A DNA stretch of 64,000 bases from Bryum argenteum. Lineage: Eukaryota > Streptophyta > Bryopsida > Bryales > Bryaceae. Under the pieces are notes generated by a model. It saw only the letters and a list, made by a program, of their open reading frames with translations. It ran no database searches and was not told where the DNA came from. This document shows, piece by piece, positions 15,091-38,757 of the stretch. Positions within the stretch are counted from its first letter, which is position 1. Each line of letters starts with the position of its first letter. The stretch is from positions 18,325,495-18,389,494 of the forward strand of contig CM073328.1 in the NCBI GenBank assembly GCA_037043015.1, written 5' to 3'. The position numbers and the translations under genes are program-made.

Positions 15091-15117
15091 AAGGGGATAT
15101 TCGTTATTTTGAGACAA
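15091..15117 (+). repeat. left terminal inverted repeat of giant element
   Basis: It reads AAGGGGATATT, three variable bases, then TATTTTGAGACAA. 24 of 27 bases match the right terminus in reverse complement. Confidence 0.95.
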
Positions 15118-15824
15118 AATGGACATATTGAGATGTTGAAAAACGTACACGCACGGGGGATTAGGAAAAAGTTGTTGAAGTATTTCAAAGATATGAAATT
15201 TAAATTAACATGCTAAGCAAAAAGAAAGAGTTGAAGGGTCCAATCACAAAGCAATAGATTTGAAAATGAGATCTTACTATAAATAGGAGGAAGTAGAGAT
15301 CAATTTGGCAATTTAATATTTCTAAAAATAGAAATTCAACAATACATAGTAAAGAATCATATAGGAACCATGTTCATATTAATTCCCCAGAGAAGTCACA
15401 ATTGATTCAAGTGAGATCATAGTTGAAAGACATAGTAAAGGTTGTATTGAAGTATGAAGAATACGTACAATTGTACAAGTGTACACTATATTTTGACATT
15501 GGTATATATCGTAAAAGAATGAAATCAGAGAATGAATGTAGAGGCATTAAATGTTGTGCCTATAATAATACTAAAGATAGAGTAATTAAAAGAATGTTTG
15601 TAGAATATACGAGGAATATACGCGGAATATACTAATCACAGAAGAGCAATAAATGCATAGTCACGAAGGGGATTATCCTCAAGTAAGCACAACTAGCTAA
15701 GCCCTGATATCTTAGATGTACTAGGTTCCACCAATCTGCGAAACACATTAATTATGTTGAATATATCCCGCTGATGAAGGATATCAGACCGGAGGAGGAA
15801 GAATAGAAAGGAGGAACATTAAGG
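15118..15824. other. left subterminal region of giant element
   Basis: AT-rich sequence downstream of the minus-strand gene block. I see no supported gene; a 70-codon open frame at 15423-15635 has no recognisable content. Confidence 0.5.
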
Positions 15825-16667
15825 CTAGGTCTCTTTAGATTTAGAGCCATTCTGCTTGGTTGAATTCTCCAACAACTTGGCTTCGGCCTCGTGTTGCTTC
15901 ATAAGCGCGCGAATAAGATCATTGCGACGAGAGTTTGGCAAGCAATTAGTACCCAAGGTCTCACTCCGACGGGCAAACCAGGTGTCAAAACATTCCCCAT
16001 CACGCCTACGAAGGGAGTCAAGAGAACGCGAAGGACGAGAGGATGAAGGAGCTGCCGATTCTCCATGCGCAGGATACGGCCGGGGTGTGCAAGAAGCTCG
16101 CCTTGATGGTGGGGGTCGCGATGCTAGTGGCTTTGCAAGAGGCAAGAAATCCCCCTTTGAACGAAGATGTCGCGGGGCACCGCCGAGGGATCTTGTTGTC
16201 CTGCTACTGTTGTAATTGTTGACTTGGAACGCGGGTTGTGATGTATTGGACGTCCCACCCACATTAATGGTGGAAGGAGGAACAATTGAATCTCGCAAAG
16301 GAACGTCCATAGCACCCACAACGGAGTAGAGCTGCCTCTGAGGTGTTTTTGAATTTAGAGCATCGGGCGACATAGAGCGCCTCCGCGATGGTGATGTACA
16401 AAGCCGCTTCAGGGGAGACGGAGAGCAAACCGGAGTCCGAACAGGACCACGACTCGGCGGGCTGTCAACAACATTGTCATCAACACTATCTCTTGTAAAA
16501 TCCATCGTTGCGGATGCTGCGTCCGTAGCTGTGAACATATCAAAATGCCTCGACGCGAGAGAGGCGGCAACACTTGCTGAGAGTGAAACAGAACATTCCG
16601 AGATGGAGGTCTGGTTGGAGACATCATCCTCATCACCGGACTCCTTGACGGTGGAAGGCGCCCTGAC
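15825..16667 (-). CDS. Ser/Pro-rich disordered protein, terminal exon
   Basis: I do not recognise this product. The frame is open for 280 codons from a good acceptor (TTTGTTCTACAG, ending at 16668) to a TAA-region stop at 15825. The first in-frame ATG is at 16538, so either translation starts there or an upstream exon supplies the start. It has an acidic start (KESGDEDDVS), then SP/RS-rich segments (SPSPLKRLCTSPSRRRSMSP) and a charged C terminus with a short helical stretch (NDLIRALMKQHEAEAKLLE). The composition suggests a nuclear, phosphorylation-prone protein. It lies downstream of the FCP1-like gene in the same orientation and could be the last exon of that transcript, but I found no donor that keeps frame. 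It is part of the giant element's cargo. Confidence 0.5.
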   Translation of the reverse strand, partial: VRAPSTVKESGDEDDVSNQTSISECSVSLSASVAASLASRHFDMFTATDAASATMDFTRDSVDDNVVDSPPSRGPVRTPVCSPSPLKRLCTSPSRRRSMSPDALNSKTPQRQLYSVVGAMDVPLRDSIVPPSTINVGGTSNTSQPAFQVNNYNSSRTTRSLGGAPRHLRSKGDFLPLAKPLASRPPPSRRASCTPRPYPAHGESAAPSSSRPSRSLDSLRRRDGECFDTWFARRSETLGTNCLPNSRRNDLIRALMKQHEAEAKLLENSTKQNGSKSKET

Positions 16668-16888
16668 CTGTAGAACAAACCCAGAAATGCAAGGAGTCGG
16701 TCAAGAAAGATGGACGCAAGAAAAATGGAAAAGTTATCCACGAAGCGGGGATAACTCTAGCCGGGGAGAACTAACGTCCTGTTCACAACCAAAAAGCATA
16801 CAAGAACATAAAGCAAACAACCAGTGAAATCAAACTCGACATAAAGAGAACATATGACTCAATGCATACAAGCTGATACCTCCAGAGA

Positions 16889-16909
16889 TTATCCCCGGGC
16901 CGGGCATAA
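16889..16909. repeat. single GGGGATAA-type palindrome (one mismatch)
   Basis: A 21-bp palindrome with one change (GGGCATAA in the right arm), in non-coding sequence upstream of the SP-rich exon. Confidence 0.9.
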
Positions 16910-17148
16910 ATAACGTCCTAACTGACAACAAAGAAAGAGTCATAAAACAGAAACAATCATCAACATCAATACTAAGTGAACAAGCATCCACAAATGATGT
17001 AAAAGAAATTGATCACATTGCGATGTGGTACATAAAGGATGATAAAATAATCGGCTTTTTTATTTAAACCATGATATTCATACAATAGCAACTCATTTAC
17101 ATATTTATCTACTGTGTCCTCAAAAAGGAATAAAGAGCGCACTAACCG

Positions 17149-18160
17149 TCATCTGGACAATGACTCAGGAAATGAAGGAGTTTCGTAAGTACGCCCTAAG
17201 TTCCTATGCGACTGCGCCATACCATCTAAAATAAACCGACCTAAATTGCTATACTTATTGATAGGCGGAATACCAATCCTATGATTGTCTACATAGGACC
17301 GAAGATTCCCAGGCCTGCAAGTGGCGAGAAGAGCAAGTAGCCATGGAGTAAGCACGGCGGACAGAGTATTGTCCTCCCGGCTAGATTTTGTCCAAGGCTG
17401 GAGGAAAATGGCGTTCCCAGTATGGTTGCAAATACTCTTCTCAGGACTGTCGTCTATGAGGAGAGTGTTATCCAACCCAAACACAACAGCACCGTTACTA
17501 AGCGGGAACACCGCAGAGGACAATGTTTTCAAAAATATCCTCTTTTGAGCATTGGTCGGGTACGACAAATAGACACCTCTGCTAACCTCAACCAATCCAC
17601 AAGACTCTTGTCCGAGGATCTCAAAAGGCTTAGGAAGTCCACTGAAGAGGTAGTCGATGACGGCCTCAACAGTGGACTTCTTCATCGAACTTCATATCAC
17701 AACCCTCGCAACATGGGCGGACATGGTCTCCAAGAAATTTCTCACTCCCGGGCGGCAGAAGACCGCCTTTGGGGGCACCTTCGCTGGGATGTCCGGCACG
17801 TAGAGCCGGTCTCCAGGAGAGCACATGGGAGAATTCCTCCCGAGCGATGGCAGATGCACACACTGACAAAGTATCCCGTTGATGTCGAGGACGACATTCA
17901 ACCATCGAGGCGGCGCCGTCGCCCGAGCGCACCTCGGCCATGGACACACTCAAATTGGGAAACCAATTCTACCTGGCATCAAAGGAAACGATAATGTTGA
18001 GGATACCTGATTGAAAGCAGAGACACTGCGATCTGAGCAAATCCACAATGACGGCATGCATTGCATCCGTGGCATTGGGGCCGATCGATCGGATTCTTGA
18101 TGCAATCTCACGGCCCGTGGGCGCAGAATGAATCCCACAGAGGTGAACTGAGAAAGACAT
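17149..18160 (-). pseudogene. FCP1/HAD-like protein with internal stop
   Basis: Exon 1 is 18007-18160 (ATG at 18160, donor CAG/GTATCC) and exon 2 is 17149-17948, joined by a short 58-base intron in correct phase. Exon 2 carries an FCP1-homology (HAD-fold phosphatase-like) domain: NVVLDINGILCQC (motif I), VFCRPGVRNFLETM, VVI-stop-SSMKKSTVEAVIDYL, then NTLLIDDSPEKSICN (motif III region). Motif I is DIN rather than DxD, so the second catalytic Asp is missing, as in the plant DLNG-type subfamily. The family has Trp where this copy has TGA (17692-17694), which points to a TGG-to-TGA nonsense change. The rest of the frame is clean to its stop at 17149. Within the giant element it is probably captured host sequence; a related dead copy lies at 55374-56408. 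Confidence 0.75.
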
Positions 18161-18348
18161 TGAGGAAAATCAAATCACACTCCAATTTGAAGGCAGAAAA
18201 ATTGGTATCAAAAATAAGTTTATTTACATCAATCATGTACAAGGGATGTGTCTGTCAACTCTGACCGAAACACTACGCTGGGTACTAAAACTACCGAAAA
18301 TCTAGAATACATGACGCGCCACAGCAAACGTTGACAACTCCAGAAAAA

Positions 18349-19860
18349 TCATAACGAATAAGGGTCGTCGATCTCCTGCAGGAGAAAATAGACGAATAAG
18401 CGAAGTTCAGGCAAGCGAATCGGTTTGGGTTAAGGCCAAGCGACAAAATCATGACGGTTGTGACGACGACGAGTTATTGCAGACATGCGGGGGAGGGTGA
18501 AAGTACTTACATCTTCATATGGCACTTGCGGTTGAATCGCGTTGGTCGGGCTAGACGAATAGTCCACCAACTGCTGGTCTTTGGACACCGGCGCCGCGAC
18601 GGGCTCAGGATTGGTCTCCTCCACTTCGACTCTTGGCTCCGCATTATCCCCGGCCCGGGGATAACTTACCAGCTGGTCGTACTGCGAAAGTTCTAGACCA
18701 AAATCGGGTGGTTGAGGAGACTCAACCACTGGAGCAGCCGGTGCCACACTCGATGAATCAGGATCCAAGGCAGGATCCTCGGCGGGAGGGGACACCTCAA
18801 CAGAAGAGTCTGCATTATCCCCGGGCCGGGGATAATCTCCAGACTGAGGAAGCTGATCGGCAGCAGCCTGAGAATCAGCAACGGCATCGGGCTGATCGGA
18901 AACAGCAACAGCTTCAGACACGATCTGGTCGGGTTCCCTCTCAGAGGGAATGGGCTGCGCCTGGGCGTCGGAGCCAGTCGCAGCAAGATTATCCCCGGCC
19001 CGGGGATAATCTGGTGTGGCCATGCCCGAGGACAGCGGCAAAGGCTCGACCTCGCTGATGGGTGCAGACGCGGTGGTCGTGGCAGTATTATCCCCGGGCC
19101 GGGGATAATCTGCAGTAGGCTCGGAACTCGGCGTGCCCGAGGTGGAAGGATTATCCGTATTCTGGCGAGCGATTATCTCAGCAACGTGCGATGGCATCGG
19201 GGTGCCAGATCTCAGCCATTCGAAGACGATGTTAGCCTCCGCGATCTTTCTTGCGTCCTCTGCTTCCTTCTGGGCCTTCTCCTTCTTCTGTCTCGCCTCT
19301 TCGGCTAGCCTCCTGTTGTTTGCCAGGAAGTGTTCCTCAACCTTCACACCCGGAGCACCTGGAGGAGGCGCAACACCTGCTGCATTCGCCATTGGGTCAG
19401 TAGAGGGATTGCACACCACGACAGGTTTCTCCTTCTTCACAGGCGTGCCAGCATCAAGAGCTGCCTGGTCATAATCATCAACGGGCCGGTTACGTTGACG
19501 GGAGCTCGAAAGTGTCGATGTCGGGAGCACGATGGCTTCGCGTTCGGGAGCTGCGACATCGACAACATAGAATTCATCCGCCTGATCAGTGCCATCGTCG
19601 TCACTGAGATCAATGAATACGTGGGTGGGCGCGACGAGTGCATAGAGTGGCCTCCCCCGTCTGGTAGGATCTTTACTCTGAGGGGTTCTGTCCATCGCAG
19701 GCGCCACAGTAGAAGAGGGCATGGCGCAAGACGCCCCATCCAATGGTTGACTTGGTGCCCCGGTCTCAGCTGCGAGATCGAGCCGGCGTTTCAATGGCCT
19801 TCGCGAGTCGGGGTTGCCCGATGATCCGACGACAACATCCGCAGATGATTGAACAGGCAT
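18349..19860 (-). CDS. long disordered protein with SUMO-type motif and palindrome-coded repeats
   Basis: I do not know this family. The main exon is 18511-19860 (ATG at 19860) with donor GAT/GTAAGTAC, joined to a 27-base last exon (18349-18375, EIDDPYSL then TGA). The product is about 458 residues. It has a basic stretch (RRPLKRRLDLA), a strong SUMO-interaction-like motif (HVFIDLSDDDG), an Ala/Lys/Glu coiled coil (LAEEARQKKEKAQKEAEDAR) and a long acidic Pro/Ser/Ala tail. Four copies of YPR[P or A]GDN occur in the tail, each encoded by one copy of the 21-bp palindrome. An upstream in-frame stop lies just before the ATG, but the ParB/methylase-like gene runs straight into it, so the two may once have been one protein. 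Likely nuclear. Confidence 0.6.
18644..19108. repeat. four palindromes inside coding sequence
   Basis: Copies at 18644-18664, 18815-18835, 18989-19009 and 19088-19108. Each is 21 bp, a multiple of three. All four are read in the same frame, so each adds the peptide YPRPGDN or YPRAGDN. Confidence 0.95.
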
Positions 19861-20530
19861 TGTCGTTGACGATCGAGCCTCGAGGGATCATCGGCATGGG
19901 CTCCTTCCCGGGCGTCGGGTCTCGTGATCGTGCCCCTGCGCTGGTGCTCATCACCCATCGGAGTGGAGATACGAGGAGATGTCTCCATTGCTTCCGGTGA
20001 TGGTGCGGTTGGCGAAGCTTGCGTGAGAGCGGTGCTATGGGCGATGCCGCTCGATCACTGTTGGCAATGCATGCGATGATGACCTGACCGGGAATGCCTA
20101 GACGCTGGACGTCCCGATCGATAGTCCGAATCGTCAGAATCGTCACCATCGGAGTCGTTGGATGTGGCATCGCTGTTCCTTTTCTCCGAGGAGTCTGCAC
20201 GATATCCGGAGCTTGAGCTTGAGGGGACCGCGTGCTCTCAGCTCCCATGTCGGACACCGGCTCTGCTGCAGAAGATGAAGGTTGGCTCCCTTCGAATGAA
20301 GCCCTCATGACGAGGCTGAGGTCCTGCATTTCGTCGGACGAAGAGCTCTTCTTGGGGACGTAGGGACAGTCATCGTGTAGGAAGTCCCTATAGTCGACCC
20401 TTGTCCTTTTATCCGCAGAGAGTAAGTATCCCCCGTAGTAGTGATTGTCAATCAGGCCATAAAAGGCATGTTTCAGGATCTGCATGGGAAGAAAAGAAGC
20501 GATCAATAACGGTGATGCACAAGGGAAAAG

Positions 20531-20667
20531 TTATCCCCGCCCCGGGGATAATCGATAGAACGACGCGAAATCGAAAATTTGCGGGATTACCAAAGAACAC
20601 AGAATACACTGGTATACACTGAAAGTTATAAAAGAAGGGGAGCTATTTATCCCCGGGGCGGGGATAA
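20531..20667. repeat. two palindromes in an intron
   Basis: Copies at 20531-20551 and 20647-20667 lie within the 233-base intron (20480-20712) of the ParB/methylase-like gene. Confidence 0.95.
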
Positions 20668-22144
20668 TGGGTCTATTTCGAGACAAATGAGGATGCTGGG
20701 TGTCGAGCTTACCAGGGAGGCGACCATGAATTTAGAGCCGGAGAAGATCCCGAGTGTTGCGTCACCCTTCTTGCAGTACTGGCGGATGAGTCCAATGTAG
20801 AACTCCATCCGCAGCTCGGAGTACTTAGCACACCACTTGGCTTCGTTGAAGTGCCCACTATCGATGTAATACGGTAGATGGGTGGGTTTGAACTCCGTCG
20901 GGTTTGTGCCGATGAAGGCTTCCTTCCTCGGTGTCTTCTTGAACAAGAAGACAATGAACACGCGTCGCGTTCTGGGATCTCTCGGGGTGGGCGCGTTGAA
21001 GATCCTCTCGACTTTCGCCACCACGTACTTGGATGTGCTCATTGTGTAGGTGAGGTGGCTGAGCTGAATCATCGCCTTCAGCTTCTCAAGCTTCTTCGTA
21101 GTGCCGCCGTTCACGATCCAGACCCATACGGTAGGGTCGGTGTATGCTGGACTCGATATCACCGCGAACTTTGCTACCAATGCTTTGAAAAACATTTTCG
21201 CACATTGGAGTCCTTGCAAAGCGAGAAGGTCATGTCACGCAAGTCAAAATGTTCCCCAAATAAACTGTTCCCTCAGCGCCTTGGTTGACCATTGGCCAGT
21301 AATGGTCATGGCCTTCGAGTCGAAGGTCCGAAGATCGAAAGCCTTCGTGGACTCCCGATGCTTGGACTTATGCCGCAAGAAGCCCTTGAAGAAGTCCTCA
21401 ACGTTGGGGTACAAGGACTTCAACTCCCCGCCGTTTTGAACTTCCCCGATTCTCGATCCGGTCGAGTAAAATTTTGGCTCGACGTGGCTGAGCAGCATGT
21501 TCCACGACGCCGTCGAGAAGCCCTTCCTCGACTTCCACACCTTCCATTTCTCATGGCATACTCCTCCGTCGTTGGGAAGGAAGAATGGGAGAGATGGCCT
21601 AATCGCCTTCAGCTCTTGGTACACAACACCCTTGCACTTCTGACAAAAAATCCAGTCACCACAGGCGTGGCTCAGGCGATGGAAGTACTTCGTCTTGTGG
21701 AAGGACAACCTTGGATACTTCAGCGCACCTTCGGCGGTTTCAACGTGGACAAGGTAAGTGATGACCCTGTCGATGTCGTCGTCGGAGAGATTTCCAAACT
21801 TCCTGAAGAGCTCCCGGCTCACATGATGCTTGTCTTGCGTGAAGTACGTCGGGTTCAAGCGATAAGGTGCGCCTGTATCGGGGTTGATCAGATTTCCAAG
21901 CAAATGAAGTTCGAGGAACTCTGCGAACTTATCGTACATGTTGTCTGGAAATGTGATAATCTGGATCTCGTGCTTGAGGTCCGATGTTGTCAAAATCAAC
22001 TTCCCGACCTTGGTGGGATCGATGTTGCGAAACCGGATTAACAGAAGATCCGTGAATTTCTGAGAAAACAAGAAAAAAAGGTTAAATGCGATGAGCGAAG
22101 GAACAATGAATACGTCTGGAACAAACTCAGAAACAGAAGGAGGA

Positions 22145-22165
22145 TTATCCCCGGGGCGGGGATAA
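22145..22165. repeat. palindrome in a stop-free intron
   Basis: It lies in the 132-base intron 22060-22191. That intron is a multiple of three and has no stop in the frame of its neighbours, so retention would insert YPRPGDN into the protein. Confidence 0.95.
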
Positions 22166-23597
22166 TCTTTGGGAATGGTGTATTGTCTTACCTTAAAATT
22201 GGTAGGATTGTAGACCGAGTCGTTATTCCGGGTCGCGTTCTCGTTCACGCTTGCGGATGGACGCCCACACTCGATCCAAATAGACCTTCCAGGTTTTATT
22301 TGGTTGCCCCACGTCGGCTGGGCGTGCTTCAGAGGGTTCGTGGTGTTGTAGAATGCCGAAATCGCTGTAAGGCGCTTTGGGTCGGTCTCGTAAAGAATGT
22401 AGGCATACCACGATTGAAGCTCTTTCTTCCTGTCCTCTGTAACGGGCTCGTTCTGAAGCTCCCTCGAGGCTTCCACGGAGTGCTGGCCATCAATGATGGC
22501 AAATTTTCCATCTTTGATCTCCTCCCATGTTCTTGGCCTCCTAGGGAGCAAGTTTCCATTGGTGTCAATGGGCGTGATGATGATCGTCTGCCTCCTTGTA
22601 ACATCTCCCATCATTGCGAGGTATGCCTTGGTGTTCGTAACGATGTCCCTTTCGAGACTTCGCACAACCCATGCGTCCTTTCCCCTCTCAAGCTGGGAAA
22701 TGGGCACCAGCTTCTGTTCTTTCTTGAACAAGAAAGAGTCCTTGAAGCTTTGGTTGAAGATTGTCTGCTCAGAAGCAAACCTCACATAGTCTGCCACTTC
22801 AGCAGAAGGTTTCGATGATTCCTTCTTCTCGTCGGGCGGCATCATGCGACTCACGGAAGTCAAGGCCGATCCTTGACTTGCGGTTGCGAGGAGCCGTCTG
22901 TTGTCTCTTCTTCTTGGGGCGGCACCGCCCGCAACGATCGCATCATTCATCGCCTCTTGAAGGCACTCGCGGAGGTGCCGGTAGAACCACTAGATCGCGG
23001 AGTGAAGCTTCCGTATGCAAAGACAATCGCAGACGCGGCGGGTGCCTTCTTCTTCTTTGCCGCTTTCTTCGCTTGACCCTTCATGCGTCTGTGACAGCCT
23101 TGAGAGCATGGTCGTAAGTTTACGAACTGTATCTTCTTGGTTGATGTTCTCCCAGCTGTCGATTTTGTCCTCCCAGAACTTGAGAAAGCCATGCCGAGTC
23201 TTGCGCAGCTCTGCAAGGAAGCCATGCGGGTCGAACTGCGCTCCGCAGTTTTCACCCACCTCTACCACAATCCCAAAGTGGTAGAGATCCCTACCCTCGT
23301 CCTGTTGTTGAAGGACACACCTGAGCATCATGTACTTCTGCCTGTGTGCCTCGAATGCTGTTACCCTCACATTCTGGTGTAAGGGAAGAAATGGGTCCGT
23401 CATGACCAACTTGGTCATAACGAGGACATGGTTCTTGACGATCTTTAGTGACCAGCTGACGACTACATCCTTGAAGACCCAGAGGTCAAGGCCTTCGTCG
23501 TCGTTATCGCGGAGGAACGGGTTGAAACCAAATGGGTGCTCCACCTTGTCTAAAGTCATGTCGAGGGGATTTGTGGCGCTGAGAGCCATCGTTTTGT

Positions 23598-24613
23598 CTG
23601 CAATCGTAAATGACAACTCGTTAATACTGGTGCCTTAACAAATTTGTTATCCCCGAGGTCACATAGCCTCTCTGCATGCAGAAGTTATCCCCGGCCCGGG
23701 GATAACTTCTGCATACAGAGCTCACAAAGCTGCTCTGCGTGCAGAAGTTATCCCCGGGCCGGGGATAACTTTCTGCTCACAGCCGTTTCTACAGCTTTTG
23801 GCAAGAGTTATGCCCGCCTCGGGGATAATCTGAATTCAAATTATGTGTATTCATAGCATTATTAGACTATTATCCCCGGGCCGGGGATAATTTTGTCCTT
23901 CATAAGCAAAATATTTTTCTTTTGGCAAGAGTTATCCCTGCCCAGGGGATAATCTGAATAAACTTTCTGTCCATTCATAGCACAGTTTAGATTATTATCT
24001 CCGGGCCGGGGATAATTTTGTCCTTCATAAGCCAAAAATTCATCTTTTGGCAAGAGCTATGCCCGCCCCGGGGATAATATGAGTGAAATTATTGTCTTTA
24101 CGTCGCACAGTTTCGAATATTATCCCCGGGCCGGGGATAATTCTTTCCTTCATTAGCCACATATTCAGCTTTTGGCTAGAGCTATCCCCGCCCCGTGGAT
24201 AATTTAAGTTCATTTTTGTCTTTTTATTGCACAAGTTAGATTATTATCCCCGGGCCGGGGATAATTCCTTCTTTCTTAAGGCAAATTTCTAGCTTTTGGC
24301 AAGATTTATCCCCGCCCCGGGGATAATCTGAACTCAATTTTGCCTTTTCGTAGCACAATGAGAAATTTTATCCCCGGGCCGGGGATAATTCCTTTCTTCA
24401 TAAGCCATTTATACAGCTTTTGACAAGAGTTATCCCCGCCCCGGGGATAACATTGGTGGCCAAGGTGGAAATAATTTGCTTTGGCATACATGGAATCAGG
24501 TGAAACGAAAGCGATATCTACATACGACGTAGATTTTAGGATTCCAGTTACAATTTCACTCAATTCGAATGACTTCATGAATCCAAACAAAGCAATTCGA
24601 ATTGGGATCTCAC
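23598..24613 (-). other. probable 5'-UTR intron of ParB/methylase-like gene
   Basis: On the minus strand TTTCAG/GTGAGATCC (24614/24613) makes a strong donor and TTTACGATTGCAG (ending 23598) a strong acceptor, eight bases before the ATG at 23589. The intervening 1,016 bases are filled by the 13-copy palindrome array. This is a splice-site inference, without transcript evidence. Confidence 0.55.
23685..24450. repeat. array of 13 palindromes at 62-bp spacing
   Basis: Palindromes start at 23685, 23748, 23808, 23870, 23932, 23995, 24057, 24120, 24182, 24244, 24306, 24368 and 24430. The spacing is 60-63, almost always 62. Alternate copies have central GGGCC and GCCCC, and the linkers alternate too (TTTTGGCAAGAG and TAGCACA-like), so the true repeat unit is about 124 bp with two palindromes. 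Some arms carry single changes (CTAT, TATGCCC). A lone half-site also lies at about 23647-23655. Confidence 0.97.
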
Positions 24614-24963
24614 CTGAAATAAAATCTTAGTGAAGGCTGGATGTGCAATGACAAAGTCACCCTATTCCGTGATGAGTTCAGTTTAATACTGGGTTACCAC
24701 ACCTTCGAAGCAGCCACCTTCAACAGCAAAAAAATACTCTTCATTCAGCCAAAATCTCACTAAAAGTATAACAGCACCAAAACAGAATTCCTAGCATCCT
24801 GTGATGAGTTCTGATCAACCCTACGGTACCTGAATGCAAACCATGAACAAGATGCTGAAAGGAGCTACGAGCAAATCAGGCAAGAGCAAAACCCTGAAAT
24901 GCAACTCGTCTTGAATTGCGAAACCCTGAAATGCGTTGAGAACTGATCACACCGAAATCACAA

Positions 24964-25050
24964 AAAGCAAAGCAAACACAAACCTCAAACACACAAAGCA
25001 AAGCAAATACAAACCTCAAACACACAAAGCAAAGCAAATACAAACCTGAA
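24964..25050. repeat. 31-bp tandem repeat, about 3 copies
   Basis: Units of the form AAGCAAAGCAAATACAAACC repeat every 31 bases. Confidence 0.85.
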
Positions 25051-25200
25051 AAAGCCAAATGCGAATGCACTATGGCAAATGCAGCAGCTGGGACGTCGAA
25101 CAGCGACCAAGAGCGCGACTGCGAAGTTCCGACAGCAGGAGCGGCGCGGAACACTGCAGGAGCAGGCGGAAAACAGCGGGAGACACAGCGGGAGCTTCGA

Positions 25201-25316
25201 CACGAGAAAGCAGCAACAGCGGCGAACACCGCGGGAGCAACACCGGCGAGCTCGGACACGAGAAAGCAGCAACAGCGGCGAACACCTCGGGAGCAACACC
25301 GGCGAGCTTGGACACG
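25201..25316. repeat. 56-bp tandem duplication
   Basis: Two copies starting CACGAGAAAGCAGCAACAGC at 25201 and 25257. The period is not a multiple of three, which argues against coding function. Confidence 0.85.
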
Positions 25317-25377
25317 TGAAAGGAGCAAACACGAATACGAACCAGGAAAAACAAGTTGAAAAAATTGAAGTGGCAGC

Positions 25378-26674: not shown

Positions 26675-27944
26675 TTAAGTTCTGAATACAAAACTATTTT
26701 AGGTCTGTTCTATAAAGTATTTTCTGAATTAAGTATGTGAAAGACCTTTGTCTTCAAAATGTATGCTACTATACAAAGTGCAAATTCTTTGTTGTTTTCC
26801 AAAATGATTTTTCAAAAGGTTTAGTATTAAATTACATATGTTTTTTTTTGTACATATATTCTTCATTAAGTTGCAGATAAAATTTCAAAAAGTCTATGTA
26901 TTCAAGATAGAAACACTGACAATTAACATGCAATTAAGCAATTATGCACTTGGCCATTTAAAAGTGCACTTGAGGTACTACGACGGTCATTGTGTGCAAA
27001 AATGATTTTTTTAATTTTTCAACTTAAATTTTTTTATAAAAAAGTTGTTATGTAAAAATATTGCGTAATGTCAAAAGTGGTAATATAAGAAGTCTTTTAA
27101 TGGCATTGCCAACGTATTTTTGTTATAAATTCCTATAAATAATATGATTAACTTTGTCCAAGGATATTTGAAATGTATATTATATGCTGCAAAAGTTTTG
27201 TGTAGATTGTAGTTTATATAATTCCTGGTTAGCAGAATGACGTAAGCACCAAATTGTTTACAAAACTAGGCATCAATGGACATTTGATAAAAATATATTC
27301 CATATTATACAATCTGACCATACAATGAAATTGAATCCATATGTCCATCGCAACAACTTGTCTACAAATCATCTTTGCGATCTTGTACTATCTAGTACAT
27401 ATATACATCTAGAAACACCTAGCATACACAAAATACTCGGATTACATACTAGTATTTAATGCTACTTACAACCGGTCATCGTCAATAGCTTCGGTTTGCA
27501 TTACAATATATTCTAATATGTGAGCCTTCGGAGATTGGATAATGCAAATGTTGCTTGGAACCTGTATTCCAAATACATTGTGATTTCTCCTCCAACTAGG
27601 GCCGTCATGACTCTTTCTGGTTCACAACATACAACAAAAACTCAAATATTAGTGAAACAGTAACCTCTAGATTAAAAAGTCTTCTATTAAAATCATTCAA
27701 ATGTTTTGAATGTTTAATATTAGAAATTTTTCAAAAAAAACTTAAGATACAACAAAATTGTTTTCATGCAGCAATACAAACACCTTTGATCAGACATTCC
27801 TCAACTAAACACTTTATTTTGAATTCATTTTTTTGTTACATTTGGAGGATTCCTTGGAGGTAGCAAAAAATATTTAAGAATAAAAAATATTTAAAAGGTT
27901 TTAAAAAATATTTAAAAGGTTTCAAATACAAGGTTGGTTGATTT

Positions 27945-28176
27945 CCTTCAAGGGGTGTGCATATGTACACCCCAAATATTCCTTGGAGGCAACAAAACAA
28001 ACCAAAAAAATTAAAATATATATAATTTAAAAAAAAGTTTTTTAAAAAACGATTAATTTTTTAAAAAGTTGTTAAATTTTTTTCAAAAACGGATGGCTAA
28101 TTTCCTCCAAGTGGCGTGCATACACACCCCTGAATCATTCCCTGGAGGCGGGAAGAAGAAGAAGAAGAAGAAGAAG

Positions 28177-28219
<43 letters not shown>

Positions 28220-28872
28220 TTTTTTTTGGGTTTGGGTTTGTGGCGGCAAATGGCGGCGACAACAGAGGTGCAGCTATGGGAGGGGAGAAGGAGGGTCGAG
28301 GGAGAGAGAAGGGAAAAGTGGTGCAGATGTCGGAGAGCATCCTCGCAGCCTCTCCTTCCTCTCCCTCTCCCACATCCTCCACACCTACCGCTCTGCGCAA
28401 GACGCTCGCTTGACAAAATCGTCCGAGAGTCTCTCCGAGGTGCAAACAGATTCCAAACGAAGCTCGGAAGTGCGTTTCATATCCTGGCATGGATGTCGCT
28501 CCCGACCTTTACGGTGGAAATCGGCCACCGAGCATGGTGGTACCGCTCGTCGCGATCGTGAATGTACCTCACATCAACGTCATTCTCAGTATCGCTGCGG
28601 TCTTCTCGTGGCCGTACAAAAAACTTCGGTGTTCCTCTTCATGTGTGTGCTCTTCCGGCTCATGTGCTCGCTGCAAGTGCTTCGTCTCGAGGATACTACA
28701 AGCTTCGGAAGAGACGGAGATGTTGCCACGATCTTGAAGGAGCACATGAAGATCCCGAACCAAATGACATGTTCAAACCGACTTGCATCGTTGTTTCAGA
28801 TTCTGCTGCAAGGGGGGTACCTACGCAGGGGTCGCACACCCCTGGAGCATTTCCTGCAGGAAATCAGCCATC

Positions 28873-28906
<34 letters not shown>

Positions 28907-29064
28907 CTCCAGGAATGCTCCAGGGGTGTGCGTACGCACCCCCCCTGGAGGAAATCAGCCATTTTTTTAAAAATTTTAATTTTTTAATTTTTTTTAAATT
29001 TTTAAAATTTTTTTCTCTTTCTCCACCAAGGAATGTGTGCACGCACACCCCTTGAAGGAAATCA
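27945..29064. repeat. five related imperfect palindromes (GGGTGTGC..GCACACCC)
   Basis: Units at about 27945-27995, 28101-28155, 28823-28875, 28905-28962 and 29022-29064 share GGGTGTGC and GCACACCCC arms with GGAAATCA and CCTGGAGG or TTGGAGG flanks. Poly-A or poly-T stretches adjoin two of them. They look like short hairpin elements or ends of one family. Confidence 0.6.
28240..28822. other. GC-rich island, possible captured gene fragment
   Basis: About 580 bp of balanced, codon-like sequence in a very AT-rich context, bounded on both sides by hairpin repeats. Frames are open in pieces on the plus strand (for example GYYKLRKRRRCCHDLEGAHE), but no start, splice structure or family is recognisable. 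It may be a transduplicated host fragment inside the nested element. Confidence 0.35.
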
Positions 29065-30251
29065 ACTACCCCTAGCTTAAAAAATGAAACAATCAATAAA
29101 TTTAAAAAGTAAAAAATCAAGAAATTAAAAAGAATTGTATTATTTTGCGAGACATAACAAGTATAAATTCAGTTTGAAGATTGTGCAAATATTGTTGATT
29201 TTTTAAAATAACTTAAAATTAAAAATTGTTCTAGACTTTAGCAAGATATAATAAATATATTAGTTTAGAGATTTTGCAATTAACATGATTCACATGAAGT
29301 CATTTTAGGAAGTTTTAAATAAAATTTGAACATACCACAAAAGTAATAGAATTTACCGAGACATAGACCATTGTATTCGTGATTCTTTAACTAATGAACA
29401 TCTTTCACATGAGGTTATTTTTAAATTTGAACAAGTAAAAATTACTATGTTAGACTATATTAATATTGACCATGATGATATTGTGTTTCAATGATATTCA
29501 GGTTGCCACGGCTTGCACCACCACAACAAATTCTACAATTGACAAGGATTGGGAGAAGCACGGATGGTTTAATGATAGGATTGTTATGTTTGATTGATAT
29601 ATTTGAATTAGGTATCAAAAGTTTGGTTATGATATTATACATGTTTGATTATAGTATTATCATTAATAGTTTGATTATGGTCTTTACTGTTATTACTTAT
29701 TAGTTTCTTAAGTATGGTTATGAATTGTTTGTATAGATTTGCATATAATATAGAGCGAGATGCTCCATATTTTCTCGTTGAATAGTACATGTTGGCCTTA
29801 TATCTCTTATAAAGTATATTTGTTTTATGAATGCCAAAAATAGTATATATAGAGCCATATGTATATGTACAACATGGAAGTTTACATGTGGTGCACAAAG
29901 TACTAAAACAAATGTTGGCAATCTTTGAACATGATAATTTGGCAATGTTCTCAAAGCAATAAAACATGATTTGGCAAAAGATTTATTATTAATCAATAGT
30001 ATTTTTCATTAGTTCAAGTTTAGTGCATGCACATTATGCACAATCTTACGGAATTAGTGAAAATTATTCACTTATGTACACATTGAAAAACCAATATTCC
30101 ATGATATTGTCACAAAAATATAGCAAAGAAAAAATAGGGATTTTTGGGATTTTTTTCCTTCCAAAAAACATTTCCGTTCAAAATCTTGTTGTTATTGAGT
30201 GCCAATTAGCGCACTTGGCCAAGTGCATAATTGCTTAATTGCATGTTAATT

Positions 30252-32355
30252 ATGATCCTATGTTTAGGTAGATTAGAATTCTATGTATTATATGCTAAGT
30301 TTAGAAGCTTCTGAAACATTCTAAGTTTTAATATCAGTGTAATTTTAGATAGGAATTACATAAAATTGCCATGTTAGGTAACAAAATTGATGTCAAATAA
30401 GTTTGTACAGTTATGTCCATGAAATTTCTTAATCTAATTTCATTTCAGTTCTAAGGTTGTGTTTTGAAACCTTAGCTATGTGAGTATTGATTGTACAATT
30501 AGAACATGTTATACTATTGCAATGTAATTATGAAATTGAAACTATGGTCTATTTCATCTATGGTAGATAAACATTGATGCAATACACATATTGTAAATAA
30601 GGTATGGAATAATTTATTACCAAATAAATGAAATTTCATCCAATTTGTGTATGACAAATACACATTATTACTAATCTCCATTTGCTCTTTTAGTAGAGAA
30701 TAAATCATAAGGAATCATAGAAATAAGAAAATTCCCCAAAGATCTACTGTACCATGATTACACCAAGTATTAAAATAAATTTGAAGGTATCATAGATCTT
30801 TCAAATGAAAGTAACACTTATTTATTGTGTTTGATATTATTCAACAATAAAACCATAGAGTCATGTACTTAATAAAAAGAAAAATAAACTAACAAAGTAT
30901 AATAGATTATTCAAGAGAAGTAACCTACATTTATAGTTATCCATTTTCTTCTATGGTCTGAGCATAAATGTTAATGTACTTATTTACTTCAAAAAAAACC
31001 CATCAAGACTATTATACCATTATAAGTACTTTTTCATTATCCAACGACTCTATTTGAACAAATATTTTTGGATTAAACAATAACTATGTTATATATTTGT
31101 AAGACTATAGGGCTTGATCTATTAATCAACAATATTCTATTTTTAAGTTTATAATTGTGTACTGATGTTTTGAATTACATTAAACTATCTTGTAATAAAA
31201 CATAGGACCTTGCTGTAATAGATTCTGTAAGATTCAAGAATGCAATTGTAACGACTAACTCACATGGTTCTAGCCAAGAACGGTTTTTTTTTTTTTTTTT
31301 TTCTTAATTTAATTTTGTTATACCTATCAATTGAAAATAATAAACTTACGTACTGAAAGAGCTGTTTATTTTTTTTCTATGCTGTGGGCGATGCATGCGG
31401 AGATTGCATGACCTGCTTGCCAGCCGCCTGATAAGCAGCACGATACTCCGAGTTGTTCGAATCGTCACCGTCAGAGGCGCTGGAAGCGTCATCACCTTTC
31501 TTCTTCTTTGATATCATAATAAGATTTTTTTGAACTAAATCTAAATAGCATTTCTAATGTGTGAGTCATTCAATCCAAGCCTTCAAAGGCCTAATTTTAA
31601 TTCTCTCAAGCTAGTTGTCATTGCTATTATGAAAAAAGAGTTTAGGTACATATAATGAATTATAATATAATATAACATAAATTAACATATTAAGGATATA
31701 ATATTATAGAGTTTAATATTATACAGTATAGTACAATAGAATATAATAGTATTTATGAAATCTTACTTAATATCCGTTAATATAAGATAATAAACTATAG
31801 TATACTATATTATAATATACCAAACGTCTTCCTTTTTTTATATTTCAGGGTTAAAGGGGATTGGACTAAATATCAAGTTAGAAATGATTGCAAATTAAAA
31901 AAGGAATTACTTTTAAAATCTTCCAATATGAATTGAGAAATTATAATCATATAGTACAATAATTATAATCATATAGTGTAATAATTATAATCTAACACAA
32001 CATACCTTAACAAAATGGAATAAAATTTAATATTGCATAATATAGTGTAACATAACATAATGTCCTAAAATATAGTATAACATAGGATATTTTATTATAA
32101 TGGAATATAAAACAATAAAATAAATATGTTTAAAAACATAATAATATATAATTATCATATAATTTTACATAACATAAATAATGTAATTCATTTTCATATA
32201 CGAAAATATATCATACTAGAATACAATATATTATAAAATAACAATTTCTATATTTTATAAAATATTAAAAAAACTTTATGATACAATATAATACAATATA
32301 ATAAAGTATAACATAGGAAAATATTGGAAATTATAGGAAATTGAAGTAAATAATA
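30252..32355. other. AT-rich interior of giant element
   Basis: Apart from the small gene fragment at 31377-31517, I see no gene. A poly-T run lies near 31287-31303. From about 31660 onward the sequence grades into TATAA-like simple sequence. Confidence 0.5.
31377..31517 (-). pseudogene. 46-codon fragment related to tail of ParB/methylase-like gene
   Basis: ATG at 31517 to TAG at 31377. The product contains KKKKGDDASSASDGDDSNNS and ends SPHASPTA. Both DNA and peptide resemble the stretch at about 20020-20190 of the minus-strand gene (DGDDSDDSDYRS, then GCATCGCCCAT). It is either a short internal duplication within the element or the remnant of a second gene copy. It also shows which reading frame of the larger gene is ancestral. 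Confidence 0.55.
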
Positions 32356-32457
32356 CTCCCTCTGTCCCATTATGATTTTCTGGTAGGTTCTCTCAAATCT
32401 ACCGTTGGAGGTAGATTTGAGAGAACCTACCGGAAAATCATAATGGGACAGAGGGAG
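32356..32457. mobile_element. Stowaway-type MITE
   Basis: A 102-bp near-perfect hairpin starting CTCCCTCTGTCCC, flanked by TA on both sides (32354-32355 and 32458-32459). This start and target are typical of Stowaway (Tc1/mariner-derived) elements. Confidence 0.92.
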
Positions 32458-32692
32458 TAGTATGATATAGTCTAATAAAGTATAGTATCGTATTTTTTAG
32501 TATACCATAGTACAATATAGTATAATATAGTATAATAGAATACAAAATAATAATCATTTATTTCACATAAATTTTAATCATATAGGAAAATATAATCTAT
32601 TATAACATAACTTAACACAATAGTATACAGGTTAATATAGTTTAATATCATATCACATAGTATTGTATAGTAATATATTCTATCGAATAACT

Positions 32693-33531
32693 AGTATAAT
32701 ATTGTATAATATAATATAATATAGTATAATATAGCATAATATAATATAATATAGTATAATATAGCATAATATAATATAATATAGTATAATATATTATAAT
32801 ATAGTATAATATAGCATAATATAGTATAATATAATATAATATAGTATAATATAATATAATATAATATAATATAATATAATATAATATAATATAGTATAAT
32901 ATAATATAATATAATATAATATAATATAATATAATATAATATAATATAATATAATATAATATAATATAATATAATATAATATAATATAATATAGTATTAT
33001 ATAGTATTATATAGTATTATATAATATAGCATAATATAATATAATATAGTATAATATATTATAATATAGTATAATATAGCATAATATAGTATAATATAAT
33101 ATAATATAATATAATATAATATAATATAATATAATATAATATAATATAATATAATATAATATAATATAATATAATATAATATAATATAATATAATATAAT
33201 ATAATATAATATAATATAATATAATATAATATAATATAATATAATATAATATAATATAATATAATATAATATAATATAATATAATATAATATAATATAAT
33301 ATAATATAATATAATATAATATAATATAATATAATATAATATAATATAATATAATATAATATAATATAATATAATATAATATAATATAATATAATATAAT
33401 ATAATATAATATAATATAATATAATATAATATAATATAATATAATATAATATAATATAATATAATATAATATAATATAATATAATATAATATAATATAAT
33501 ATAATATAATATAATATAATATAATATAATA
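32693..33531. repeat. (TAATA)n pentanucleotide satellite, about 840 bp
   Basis: Almost pure 5-bp units, with interspersed ATAGTATAAT and ATAGCATAAT variants in the left third. Open frames here are artefacts. Confidence 0.97.
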
Positions 33532-33689
33532 TATGTTATTCTAATTTTGTAGTTATTATAGTTTATTCCATAAATTCTGTAATACAAATTTGGATTTTTT
33601 TTTGCACTTCTCATAGTTATGTAAAGATTGTTCAATTTTATAGTGAAAATATAAGACAATATTGTTTGTAAAAAAAAATAATTGATAAT

Positions 33690-34210
33690 TAGAAATGGGT
33701 TCCCTCCAAAATCAGTTTCCCGCCGAAATTCCGTTGCCGCCTAATACTTTCAAAATTCTGTTTTCAAAAGTGGAATCGTATTTAGAATCGTAATAAAGAC
33801 AAAGTCCATATTGCGACAAAATTTGTCAGCTTTTTGCACGATTTCGGGCGTCGAGATACTCTCACGATGTGGCCGTTGAGGTCGGGCTCGGGTTGCATAC
33901 TCTGTCTCTCAGGTGTCCTCCATTTCCTTCTCTCTCTCGTTCTTGCTTCAAGGTGCGCTCCATTTCATATTTCGTTCCGGTGTGTAGGTTCAATGTTGCA
34001 TCTGTGTAGAAGAAGTTTCAGTTGGTGCTCAGTGCGTTTGATGTAGTTTCGCATTTAGAGGTTTCAGTATTGTTGCATTAATTTGATAATGATTCAAGTT
34101 AAAACTATTGCTCGTCATGTATTTTTCGACTTCTGTATTCGGTACTAATTTTTGTGCTTGGTTTTTCAGTTGCGAGCCCTTCTTTTCCTTTCGAATTCTG
34201 CGATTCGCAG
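33690..34210 (+). promoter_or_regulatory. probable promoter and 5' leader of transposase gene
   Basis: Less AT-rich sequence ending in a strong donor, GATTCGCAG/GTGAGCG (34210/34211). With the acceptor TTTTTTATAG at 35379, this gives a leader exon and a 1,169-base 5'-UTR intron one base before the transposase ATG. A second possible donor lies near 33953. No transcript evidence. Confidence 0.45.
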
Positions 34211-34284
34211 GTGAGCGATGTTCGCAAATTGAGTGCAAGGCATGAATGGCAGTGTTTCAGCACTTACTATTAATAGAATGCAAG

Positions 34285-35282
34285 TTATCCCCGGGCCGGG
34301 GATAACTTCTACTGTCTATGGGGATTATTCCTGGAATCTATGCTTCTATGATTATCCACGCCCCGGGGATAACCTTGCATCTACCCAAGAAAACCATTAT
34401 CCCCGCCCCGGGGTAATATTATTTTCGTGGGCAGTTGAAATATTATCCCCGGGCCGGGGATAACTGTTATTTGTGGGCGGTTACATAGTTATCCCCGGCC
34501 CGGGGATAATCATGCAACTGCTCACCAAAAAAATTTATCCCCGGCCCGGGGATAATATTTCTACTGCCCACGAAAATAATATTATCCCCGGGCCGGGGAT
34601 AATATTTCTACTGCCAATGATACTAATACTATCCCCGGGCCGGAGATAACCTTGCAACTGCCTACCAAATAATATTATCCCCGGGCCGGGGATAATCTTT
34701 TTGTGGGAGGATGCAAGGTTATCCCCTGTCCGTGGATAACTTTGTTACCGCCAAAAATATTATCTCCGGGCCGGGGATAATATTATTTGGTAGGCAGTTG
34801 CAAGGTTATCCCCGGCCCGGGGATAACTATGTAACCGCCCACAGAAAACAGTTATCCCCGGCCCGGGGATAATATGTTTTCCTTGGGCCGATGCAAAGTT
34901 ATCTCCGGCCCGGGGATAATCTTGCAACGGCCCAGGAAAAAAATATTATCCCCGGCCCGGGGATAACTGTTCTTTCTGTACGGTTGCATAGTTATCCCCG
35001 GGCCGGAGATAATCTTGCAACGGCCCAGGAAAAACAGTTATCCCTGGGCCGGGAATAATATTGTTTTCCTGGGCCGTTGCAATATTATCCCCGGGCCGGG
35101 GATAATATTTTTTTCCTGGGCCGTTGCAAGATTATCCCCGGGCCGGGGATAATATTTTTTTCCTGGGCCGTTGCAAGATTATCCCCGGGCCGGAGATAAC
35201 TATTTAACCTTGTAGGGTTAGTTTTATCCCCGGTGCGTGGATAATATCCAACCATGGTCTGGTATCCACGGGCCGGGGATAA
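34285..35282. repeat. array of 22 palindromes at 46-47-bp spacing
   Basis: Palindromes start at 34285, 34352, 34397, 34443, 34489, 34535, 34582, 34629, 34675, 34719, 34760, 34806, 34852, 34899, 34946, 34992, 35038, 35085, 35132, 35179, 35224 and 35262. Most intervals are 46 or 47. Linkers are themselves repeated and alternate in orientation (TTGCAACGGCCCAGGAAAA and its reverse complement). Several copies carry one or two changes (GGAGATAA, TATCTCC, one-base loss at 34397). The array fills the apparent 5'-UTR intron of the transposase gene. Confidence 0.97.
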
Positions 35283-35380
35283 TTGTGGCGGTATTTTTGC
35301 CTCGGTTTTCATGTTTGATCATCTCGAATGCTATTAGACAAGCACTAAGTAATGTTTTCAATCTTCGACTTTTTTATAGG

Positions 35381-38196
35381 ATGGAGACTTTTGTTGGCAA
35401 TGGTGTCGATTTCCGTCCACCAGTTCTACCTGAAGGAGTTGCACAGTGCGAGGGTTTTAGCCGTTCGTCATGGGTGTCGAAACGAGTCACTCTTCTGAAT
35501 GACGCCGGTGTCGAAGTTGCAAAAGCTGTCTGTCAATCGGTTGACTCTAGCGTCGTCCCAGAGACTGGTGGTCGGCCTCTTGGATCCGACTTTGTCTGCG
35601 TGCAGATAGCAGAGTCATTACTAGAAGCAGAGGTTCCTTTCAGTTGGATCTACTCTTTGCGTGCATGGCCAATAACGCTTGTGCTCCTCAACGGAGCAAG
35701 CCTCTACGACCACGACCAACGCGCCATCTTCAATGCGGCTTGCAAGGTTTTTGGTCGGCCACCACGAGTTGGTCTTCGCCAGTACGAGAGCAAACGTCAT
35801 AGGCGTCTTCGGGATTCACCAGCTAAGAAGGAGTACTTTCTTACACCGGAGTCCATCAACTTTGTTTCAACAACTTATTGTTGTCCAAAGAACTGTGTGC
35901 AGCCCTATCCTCGAGGCAAAATTAAAGATCTGAGGTTCCAGTTCTATGTTCGCGGTGATGTTTACTTCAGAAAACATTGTCTCCTTAGTGTGCATGGTCA
36001 AGTCCATGAAGCGGCGGACGGAAATGACATGATTATGTTGGAGGGTATTGAGGTGTGTTGTGTGGCGTGGTACCTGATTATGGGAGTGTCACGTGCCACA
36101 TTTTTCCGGTGGAGATATGCCTATCAAGACGGACAGCAAGCGGAGGACCATGGAAACTGTGGTTCAAAGAAACCTCGTATCCAGACATTGCAAGCCACAG
36201 CATCCCTTCAAGCCATTGTGGAAAATGCTGCGGATCTCATGCCGCATCGAACAAAGACTATTGATACGGGCGAGAAGGTTGTGTCCAAGTGCTTGCCCTC
36301 TTCCTTCCGCTGGAGGGACAGTTTACCAGAGGTGAATGCCATCAATGTCGTCCACGGTCTTCCTCCTATATCAAATTCTGCTCTAAGTAGGATTCGGCAA
36401 GAATCATTCCAAGAGTACTATTCCAAGCAAAAGGGTGACACATTTGCTCGTTGTGGTGAATGTGACAAAATCAAACAACTTCGAGCATCCAGTACTCGAG
36501 GCAGTCGCGCATGGGCTCTTCATGATGCCAAATTCAAACGTCATAATACTTCTCAAATGGCGCATAGGTTGCTCTATTATAGTAACCGCTCAGAGTCTGA
36601 GGCACGGCCCGAATCGTCTTTGTGCATTATTCATGACAAAATGGATCATTCCAAAACAGCCTCTCCGCAATTCTCACACAAGAGTAAATCGACCGATTCC
36701 TTCATGAAATTGCTGGTTTCCATCACAGGCATGATTGCTCATGGACACGGAGATGTACGTTACGCACATTACGGCCTCGATATATATCCCACGGATTCCA
36801 ATCATACTATCGGTTCATTTGCTCAACTGTTAAGAGATTTGGAATCTCCTCCGAAGTGCTCTTCCAGGCAGTTGTTTGGTGGTGGTAGAAGTAGCCCTCT
36901 CTCTGAGGCTGTTTTGGATGGGGCGGACATGTGCTTGGATTCGCTTGGTCTTCTCCCAGAGGCTCCAATCCCGGGAAAGACTCTTCCTCCGGTGCTACAC
37001 ATGCAGCTAGATAATGCTTGCGGGGATAATAAGAATCGGTTTGTTTTTGCATTCTTTTCACTGCTCGTGTACAAGGGCGTTTTTCGAGAGATTTACTTGA
37101 ACTTCCTTATTGTGGGTCACACTCATGAAGATATTGATGCTCTTTTCGGGCGATGGAGTAGTAAGCTTAAGACCAACAGCTACCCTACTGTTCCACTTCT
37201 CATGAGATCTTTCATGGACACAGAGGATAAGCCGGTAATTCCTCACTTAATTGAGGAAGTACCGGATTTCAAGACGTTCATCAAAGGTTACCTTTGTGAT
37301 GGCGACGAGGCGTTATCTGGGCATACTAGTGCCCAACAATTTAGGTTTTTTAGAGATGCTTCCGGCTGGCCTTTGATGCAGTACAAATTCTGTGTACGGA
37401 TAGCGAGTGGCTTCCTCAAGATAGTGCAGGGGTTAGGTTGTGGAAAGTTTTGCCAAATGGTCAACCTCACGTTCCTCTTGGAGATCCTATGTTATTAGTT
37501 CCAAACGAAATGAAGAATATAGAAGATATTCGAAAAGGAATTAGTGGTTTTGTGAGCTTGTGGGAGTCCTTGGCGGATGCTGATCCAACAGGCGACTATC
37601 GTAGACATCATGAACAATTCATTTACTATTGGAAAGCAGTTCGTGAGGCTTTAGATTTACCCGTCCCTGCTCCATCAACGTTTAGAGATGGATTTTGGCC
37701 TACTTCTAGGTACTCTCCAAGTGAAGAGGATCGATTTGAAGATAACGGAGAGTTGCGCGAGGAATTTGCTGCTGATCCTCCGTTCGTAGGACAAATACGA
37801 GATCGTCCACAAGCATCATTCAGAGTTGGACGGGATGTTTATGAGGGATACCTACTTGTGCTACGTCCGGCTGATGGAGATCTCAAGAAATTTTGGGTAG
37901 CTCGTGCTTTGAGCAACCCAAATGTTAGTGTAGAGCATCCTCAAGAAATCCACATTGAGTATTGGAAGCCAGTATCTTCTAAACATGTCAATCCTGACAC
38001 TTACGAAGGGTGGGATACAAGAAGAGGTAACTCTTGGTGTAAAGATATGGATTATGATCCAACCTGGGTGGCTACAACATCAATCATGGGAGCTTGGAAG
38101 CCAAGATTTTGTCTTGAAACCGTTAATCCCAAGATGTGCATACCGGAGCTACAAATTTCAATTATTAAGGACTCAATTATCGAGTTTGATGAGTAG
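35381..38196 (+). pseudogene. DUF7869-like putative DDE transposase, one frameshift
   Basis: The ATG follows the acceptor at 35379. The frame is clean for about 670 residues, then shifts by one base near 37391 (QYKF, then TDSEWLPQD in the next frame) and stays open to TAG at 38196, about 937 residues in all. It has Cys clusters (TYCCPKNC, ARCGEC), an HTH-like stretch (YLIMGVSRATFFRWRYAY, about 231-248) and a DUF7869-like core: CIIHDKMDHSK (D419/D422), HMQLDNACGDNKNR (D544) and IVGHTHEDIDALFGRW (about 578-592). The spaced acidic motifs fit an RNase-H-fold DDE/DDD enzyme. It is the best candidate for the enzyme that moved the element. The role is inferred; I know DUF7869 proteins only as common unassigned plant and protist proteins. 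The host genes in this window show no such breaks. Confidence 0.75.
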
Positions 38197-38730
38197 TTTT
38201 CATGTTAATATATAGTTATATTAGATTATATTAGTTTCAATGGTACACCTTTTCTCATTGCGATGTAGCCAATGCAAATTAGAGTAGTATGACACTACCT
38301 CTAAACATGATTTATCTAATTATAGTAATATGGTTTATCCATTTCAATGTGTTTCCATGGGATTATTTCCTTCCATTAGTGTTGTGATAATTTTATTTCT
38401 CTATAGATATTAATATGTCCTTTCATCGGATTCATTCTTGTATATATTTTTCTTTGAAGTAATGATACTCATCATGCATAATACTTTTTTGGTCCTTGAA
38501 GCTTGCAATCTATGACTCGAGTAGTGAGATGTGAAGTAGTCTCAATATACTTTCCGTCTCAAAATAATGAATATTAATGATCAACAAATATATTAATAGA
38601 ATTTTTGGTATCGAGGGTTCAACTTACATTCTTTTGTTGGGTTCATTCGAGTCTCATTTTCAATTCGGTCTCATTTTACTTGACACCAGATTTACTATTT
38701 TTAACCACTGATTTAAATTGAGATTGCAAA
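38197..38730. other. right subterminal region of giant element
   Basis: AT-rich 3' flank of the transposase gene. An extra copy of the terminal motif (GTCTCAAAATAAT, 38556-38568) and related GTCTCATTTT pieces occur near 38655-38685, as expected for subterminal binding sites. Confidence 0.6.
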
Positions 38731-38757
38731 TTGTCTCAAAATACTTAATATCCCCTT
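38731..38757 (-). repeat. right terminal inverted repeat of giant element
   Basis: In reverse complement it reads AAGGGGATATT, AAG, then TATTTTGAGACAA, matching the left terminus at 24 of 27 bases. GGAG follows directly. Confidence 0.95.

Follow-up and report, generated by a model that had tools for sequence, protein, structure and literature searches.

The stretch of DNA analysed here, referred to as the window, comprises 64,000 nucleotides of the moss Bryum argenteum (assembly GCA_037043015.1, contig CM073328.1, positions 18,325,495 to 18,389,494) and holds a DNA transposon of 23,667 bp at 15091..38757, the window copy of a family designated f1. Its boundaries were established from an empty site, multi-copy ends and target-site duplications (TSDs). 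When the flanks 13786-15090 and 38758-39069 were joined (1617 bases), they aligned over their full length with 43198-44811 (1614 bases), an empty-site copy on the minus strand, taken in reverse complement; identity was 99.26%, and there were 4 gap openings. The tetranucleotide GGAG is single at the empty site and flanks the element on both sides in the filled site (15087..15090 and 38758..38761). The termini, AAGGGGATATTCGTTATTTTGAGACAA and AAGGGGATATTAAGTATTTTGAGACAA, lie at 15091..15117 (plus strand) and 38731..38757 (minus strand) as 27-bp inverted repeats that differ at 3 positions and agree at 24. Both the empty site and these exact ends had been claimed in the original prediction, made from the letters of the window, and both were recovered.

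Assembly-wide, the 27-bp left end was found exactly 48 times (23 forward, 25 reverse), and a reversed-pattern control gave 0 matches. End searches were evaluated for the best 40 of 91 matches to the first 501 bases of the element and the best 40 of 99 matches to the last 500, and ten of at least 40 copies, picked for having both ends within ~20 kb, were taken whole. With the window copy this gave 11 copies read at both ends, all of which carry a perfect 4-bp TSD, each a different one (GGAG, TAAA, ATGT, CAAC, CTTG, ACTT, TTGT, AAGT, TTAT, TTTG and ATAG). Further copies with these termini and 4-bp duplications, which the original prediction had proposed to seek in related plant genomes, are thus present in this genome. 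The genome-wide repetition of the ends, together with the 11 different perfect duplications, identifies a transposon and not an accident of assembly, and likewise counters the assembly error at 15091 or 38757 that the prediction had named as its possible undoing. Family f1 is a real multi-copy DNA transposon family of ~17-24 kb with inverted ends and 4-bp TSDs. The predicted size of 23.7 kb holds for the window copy but not for the family, since the ten other copies span ~17.4-19.8 kb by their end coordinates, a range skewed to short copies because of the ~20-kb limit of the sample. End pairs 21-70 kb apart also occur; some neighbouring left and right ends separated by 34-70 kb (e.g. C3:28588380-28645521) represent either larger nested copies or chance pairs.

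The cargo is organised in two divergent units. The right unit is the transposase gene (35381..38196, plus strand, ~940 amino acids), which contains a frameshift within 37354-37498 in the window copy; in two other copies (C9a and C1b) the transposase aligns in a single frame across nearly its full length. The left unit, on the minus strand, begins with a gene referred to as ParB-like/methylase-like, followed by further open frames. The N-terminal, ParB-like and middle domains of this gene were assigned to 21244..23634 from homologues and the list of open frames, and its putative methylase-like part to 20713..21234 from homologues, alignment and a weak fold comparison. Two introns are predicted, intron 1 (22060..22191) from GT..AG borders and the ends of the homologues P0060 and P0059, and intron 2 (20480..20712) from GT..AG borders and the open frames. 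In the window copy the gene is broken by stops between frames of 214 and 581 amino acids and near 21244.

The transposase matches the Pfam domain DUF7869 (PF25273) with 144.8 bits against a gathering score of 26. Searching with the window frame gave 58 relatives and a profile search 481, of which 120 were listed; the few listed relatives with a named organism all come from Ceratodon purpureus or Physcomitrium patens, both of them mosses. Two of the Ceratodon relatives have locus tags with VG. The motifs HDKMDH, QLDN and GHTHxDID were present in 113, 129 and 112 of 136 proteins, many of which are fragments, and the second residue of motif 3 was D in 109 of 112. These conserved acidic motifs fit a DDD/E enzyme, and from them we infer that DUF7869 is a Sola-like, cut-and-paste DDD enzyme. 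No mention of DUF7869 was found in the open-licence papers searched; this domain of unknown function gains context here as the likely transposase of elements with defined ends.

Sola elements, according to the passages concerned with them in PMC10741241, have a DDD enzyme and a 4-bp TSD and can exceed 15 kb, and a table in PMC9033089 places Sola1 in the moss Physcomitrella. Family f1 has the 4-bp TSD (11 of 11 copies) and terminal inverted repeats (24/27), and, as compared by description, the large size, the moss host and D/D/D-like motifs in its transposase. Because the TSD and inverted repeats agree, the size and moss host match and the acidic motifs would fit a DDD enzyme, the element is treated as Sola-like, a placement by described features and not by sequence match. 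The earlier view that it matches no known plant superfamily is therefore unsupported. Where f1 differs is in its palindromes and its ParB-like/methylase-like gene, which go unmentioned in the parts of the Sola accounts cited; the novelty is the palindrome system, which the original prediction had not noted.

The palindrome of f1, first shown by a repeat finder, is 21 bp long (TTATCCCCGGSCCGGGGATAA). Allowing up to 4 mismatches, 44 palindromes were counted in the window, every one inside the element, in two arrays of 13 and 22 units and nine single sites in the left unit. Upstream of the ParB-like gene lies array 1 (23685..24450, spacing 60-63 bp); the transposase gene has array 2 upstream of it (34285..35282, with 44-47 bp in 18 of 21 spacings). 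The single sites are found in intron 1 (22145), in intron 2 (20531 and 20647), between open frames (two at 16734..16909) and in an apparently coding stretch (four at 18644..19108, with spacings that are multiples of 3). All ten other f1 copies carry palindromes, at 19-46 per element. Genome-wide, the exact palindrome was found 661 times per strand, whereby a palindrome with a free centre counts once on each strand; the reversed pattern was found 0 times.

The four sites in the coding stretch belong to an open frame of 485 amino acids (18430..19887, minus strand) delimited from the frame list and the sequence, in whose low-complexity coding tail they lie in frame and read DYPRxGDN. A role of the palindromes as protein repeats (YPRPGDN) was considered and rejected: in the ParB-like gene the repeat is apparently a read-through intron, although in the 485-amino acid frame it is apparently coding. 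In P0061, P0064 and P0066, relatives from other sources, the apparent intron read-through YPRPGDN was seen together with the variants YHRSGDN and YPRLEDT, so that variation of the palindromes in the ParB-like intron seems to extend to other genomes.

Divergence was compared in alignments of 10 of the 11 f1 copies, C1d being omitted because it carries extra sequence. The pairwise difference in intron 1 was 5.1% in the palindrome and 20.4% in the rest, and in intron 2 it was 3.5% in the palindromes and 19.0% in the rest, so that palindromes in the two introns diverge 4-5 times less than their surroundings. In the coding tail the values were 10.9% and 21.4%, respectively. Changes in the palindrome arms were then pooled over 361 sites, where 353 one-sided changes stood against 7 complementary double changes (counts from related copies, which are not independent events). 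The dyad symmetry of the motif is perfect, as RNA or DNA hairpins would require, but this predominance of one-sided changes makes a hairpin function very improbable; it suggests instead that what is maintained is the sequence of the sites, as recognition by a dimeric protein would lead one to expect. The palindromes could also be neutral, having multiplied through tandem duplication and gene conversion or as mobile palindromes that insert anywhere in the element. The arrays are indeed tandem repeats and palindrome number varies among copies (19-46), but the low divergence within two diverged introns, the lack of palindromes in the window outside the element and the agreement of positions between families with different palindromes, described below, leave this explanation little chance.

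A search with a distant relative revealed other DUF7869 transposases in the same genome. Upstream of all five of the first chosen sister transposases, an array of a different palindrome was found (TTTAGCTCGANTCGAGCTAAA, family f2), with a spacing of ~45-60 bp overall and 45-46 bp in the best-ordered locus; the exact f2 palindrome with S at its centre occurs 4929 times per strand genome-wide. A second set comprised seven further loci from the list of DUF7869 matches, at each of which 3 kb was taken. Two of these carry a third palindrome (TTATCGTCGNNNCGACGATAA, f3) at ~54 bp spacing; a pattern with a fixed G/C centre proved too narrow (12 matches), since the centre varies, and the wider pattern gave 127 matches per strand genome-wide. 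One of the seven has a fourth type (GGGTGRGCAYRTGCYCACCC, f4) and one has three copies of a fifth (GGGTCTTAGGCCTAAGACCC, f5). In ten block shuffles per locus, such palindromes averaged 0.4 or fewer, compared with 3-16 in the nine positive loci. Of the genomic f4 sites, 36 of 37 have one of four DUF7869 matches no more than ~9 kb away (C3:4170051, from whose upstream stretch the pattern came, C3:19499907, C3:25951542 and C9:12414651), the exception being a site at C3:23370278.

In the loci read, palindrome types were unmixed, except that some f1 sites also read weakly as f3. With up to 3 mismatches allowed, f2 palindromes numbered 0 in the 11 f1 copies and f1 palindromes 0 in the nine f2/f3 loci; 11 f3-like near-matches were spread over 5 of the 11 f1 copies, because each arm of f1 is two positions away from that of f3. 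In one f2 and one f3 element, the left arm contains the same ParB-like/methylase-like gene at ~24-39% identity, and own-type palindromes occupy the array, the gap that matches intron 1 and a position just after the methylase-like part. The latter two positions would correspond to the predicted introns 1 and 2 of f1. The stretches read contain 32 own-type sites in the f2 element and 31 in the f3 element. The sister families thus have the same layout with a different palindrome.

The transposase itself might bind the palindromes, as autoregulatory or accessory transposition sites in the manner of TnpA sites in En/Spm. The transposase gene follows immediately on array 2, and the f1 half-site GGGGATA is also contained in the f1 terminus AAGGGGATATT, where its four G are exactly the positions at which the putative f2 terminus AACCCCATATTCGTTAT departs from it. 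That f2 terminus, however, bears no comparable likeness to the f2 palindrome; the f1 likeness is therefore not general, and the sites are internal rather than subterminal and occur also in introns of the ParB-like gene. End-binding by the transposase is less favoured because the likeness between palindrome and terminus is not repeated in f2, and we consider it an unlikely reader, if one that retains some weight. The related idea that the palindromes are doubled termini, suggested by the GGGGATA shared by the f1 arm and terminus, was discarded, given that the putative f2 terminus is unlike the f2 palindrome.

Between the two arrays lies an AT-rich centre with a (TATAATATAA)n simple repeat (32458..33533) that is matched at variable length in most other f1 copies. 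Two iteron-like arrays flanking such a centre, together with the ParB-like motif in the left-unit gene, would suit an origin or partition site with the ParB-like protein as its reader, the element replicating or persisting as an episome. In a Foldseek comparison of the C-terminal half, 18 of the 50 rows listed were EBNA1 chains, but all with E values of 0.3 or worse, which are non-significant matches from a poor model. None of the nine frames scanned was recognised as a replication gene, sites in introns and a coding stretch are unexpected for an origin, and the f2 and f3 stretches read showed no (TATAATATAA)n repeat. An episomal element is accordingly improbable.

Alignment with the ten other copies divides the element into a common left block from 15091 to ~23.8 kb, which is less continuous in the more diverged C1 copies, a variable middle, and a right block common to 9 of 10 (none was listed for C1c). 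The middle of the window copy contains a nested element of 3.3 kb (26921..30251) that stands outside the f1 family and has 36-bp perfect inverted ends and a likely TSD AATT. This insertion is missing from copy C1b, whose alignment continues across it with a 5-base overlap, and the window copy is longer than the other f1 copies partly because of it. The nested element itself has GGGTGTGC-type palindromes (27953 and 28924) that resemble the f4 type, and it is perhaps a non-autonomous relative. At the far end of the left unit are an open frame of 291 amino acids with no Pfam match (15825..16700, minus strand) and an FCP1/NIF phosphatase-like piece (17149..17691, minus strand), whose frame is broken upstream by a stop in the window copy and whose match (E 2.9e-4, 21.0 bits) falls under the cut-off of 21.8. 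In the left 3.5 kb (15091-18579), identity to C1b, C1c and C1d is 90-94%, compared with 80-88% across the remaining left arm, as if the FCP1-like module had been exchanged between subfamilies. Contig C1, which accounts for 44.1 of 258.8 Mb, holds 22 of the 48 exact f1 left ends and 38 of 49 rows in the distant-relative search (two rows being one place), a concentration of sister transposases; C1 may, as a guess, be a sex chromosome.

The 19-46 dispersed sites per element, which keep their places and change their letters as a set between families, point to a reader that changes along with them. The ParB-like/methylase-like protein is the favoured candidate, since all three families examined have it and its own introns carry sites, and the resemblance of the layout to VANC21 sites leads us to propose anti-silencing or activation specific to each family. 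The palindromes would be bound by a dimeric DNA-binding protein encoded by the element, most likely this one, and its specificity would co-evolve with the palindrome of its own family. It would coat the promoters and introns of that family and keep them expressed despite host silencing, so that each family would activate only itself. That the DUF7869 protein of the ~17-24-kb f1 transposon is a Sola-like DDD enzyme and that the palindromes are sites of such a co-evolving reader, acting in the style of VANC, is to us an evenly balanced proposition. More tentatively still, the moss Sola-like giants may have independently evolved self-recognition, in which a private 20-21-bp palindrome and a co-evolving candidate ParB-like/methylase-like reader protect or activate one family.

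Several observations weigh against this proposal. The ParB-like assignment depends on a weak PHROG match (E 0.048, in 1 of 6 proteins); Pfam ParB was matched by none of 10 homologues and NCBIfam ParB by none of 6. The structure model of the ParB-like/methylase-like protein has a mean pLDDT (predicted local distance difference test) of 48 and compares weakly with a methyltransferase fold, and that of the transposase has a mean of 57, with values below 50 at residues 394-503 and 518-690 that make the DDE core unreliable. Three of the 12 sister loci (L045, L047 and L048) had no palindrome array in the 3 kb taken, and the f2 and f3 left arms are a sample of one each. The putative f2 terminus, present in 39 exact copies, was recognised as a right end in only three of five f2 loci, and the pattern search for an f2 left end gave no usable pair, so that TSDs are available for f1 only. 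The third-gene stretch showed no clear extra constraint (5.0% versus 6.6%), and CpG decay, in the same alignments, did not separate palindromes from the remainder in a way that indicates demethylation.

No description of such palindromes was found among the titles and abstracts listed in searches of open-licence papers. Giant multi-gene DNA transposons are, to our knowledge, little described from land plants, and essentially one plant model, VANC/VANDAL, is known for evasion of silencing without waking other transposons. If the self-recognition proposed here is true, the moss elements would provide a second system, alike in where the sites lie but with clean dimeric palindromes, and the co-evolution of reader and site would be directly testable in mosses, in which gene targeting works well.

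Bacterial ParB-parS and EBNA1-oriP likewise pair a dimeric protein with palindromic sites, as is proposed for f1, with weak hints from sequence and fold. In En/Spm, through TnpA, and in Ac, a protein of the element likewise reads a short site that recurs many times; there the sites are subterminal, whereas f1 has them in its interior, within promoter regions, introns and one coding stretch. VANDALs are Mutator-like elements, and the comparison of f1 with VANC concerns the layout of sites, anti-silencing by f1 being an analogy only. VANDAL/VANC motifs are described as short and family-specific and as changing together between families (PMC5735166; PMC10398659). According to PMC5735166, VANC21 sites stand in tandem within introns of VANC21 and VANB21 and in the region upstream of VANA21. 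The VANC21 motif is described there as 9 bp long and arrayed in the same orientation, and the term 'palindrome' is absent from the main text of PMC5735166, whereas the f1 motif is a 21-bp palindrome. With VANDAL elements f1, f2 and f3 nevertheless share family-specific motif arrays in noncoding upstream regions, with further sites in introns.

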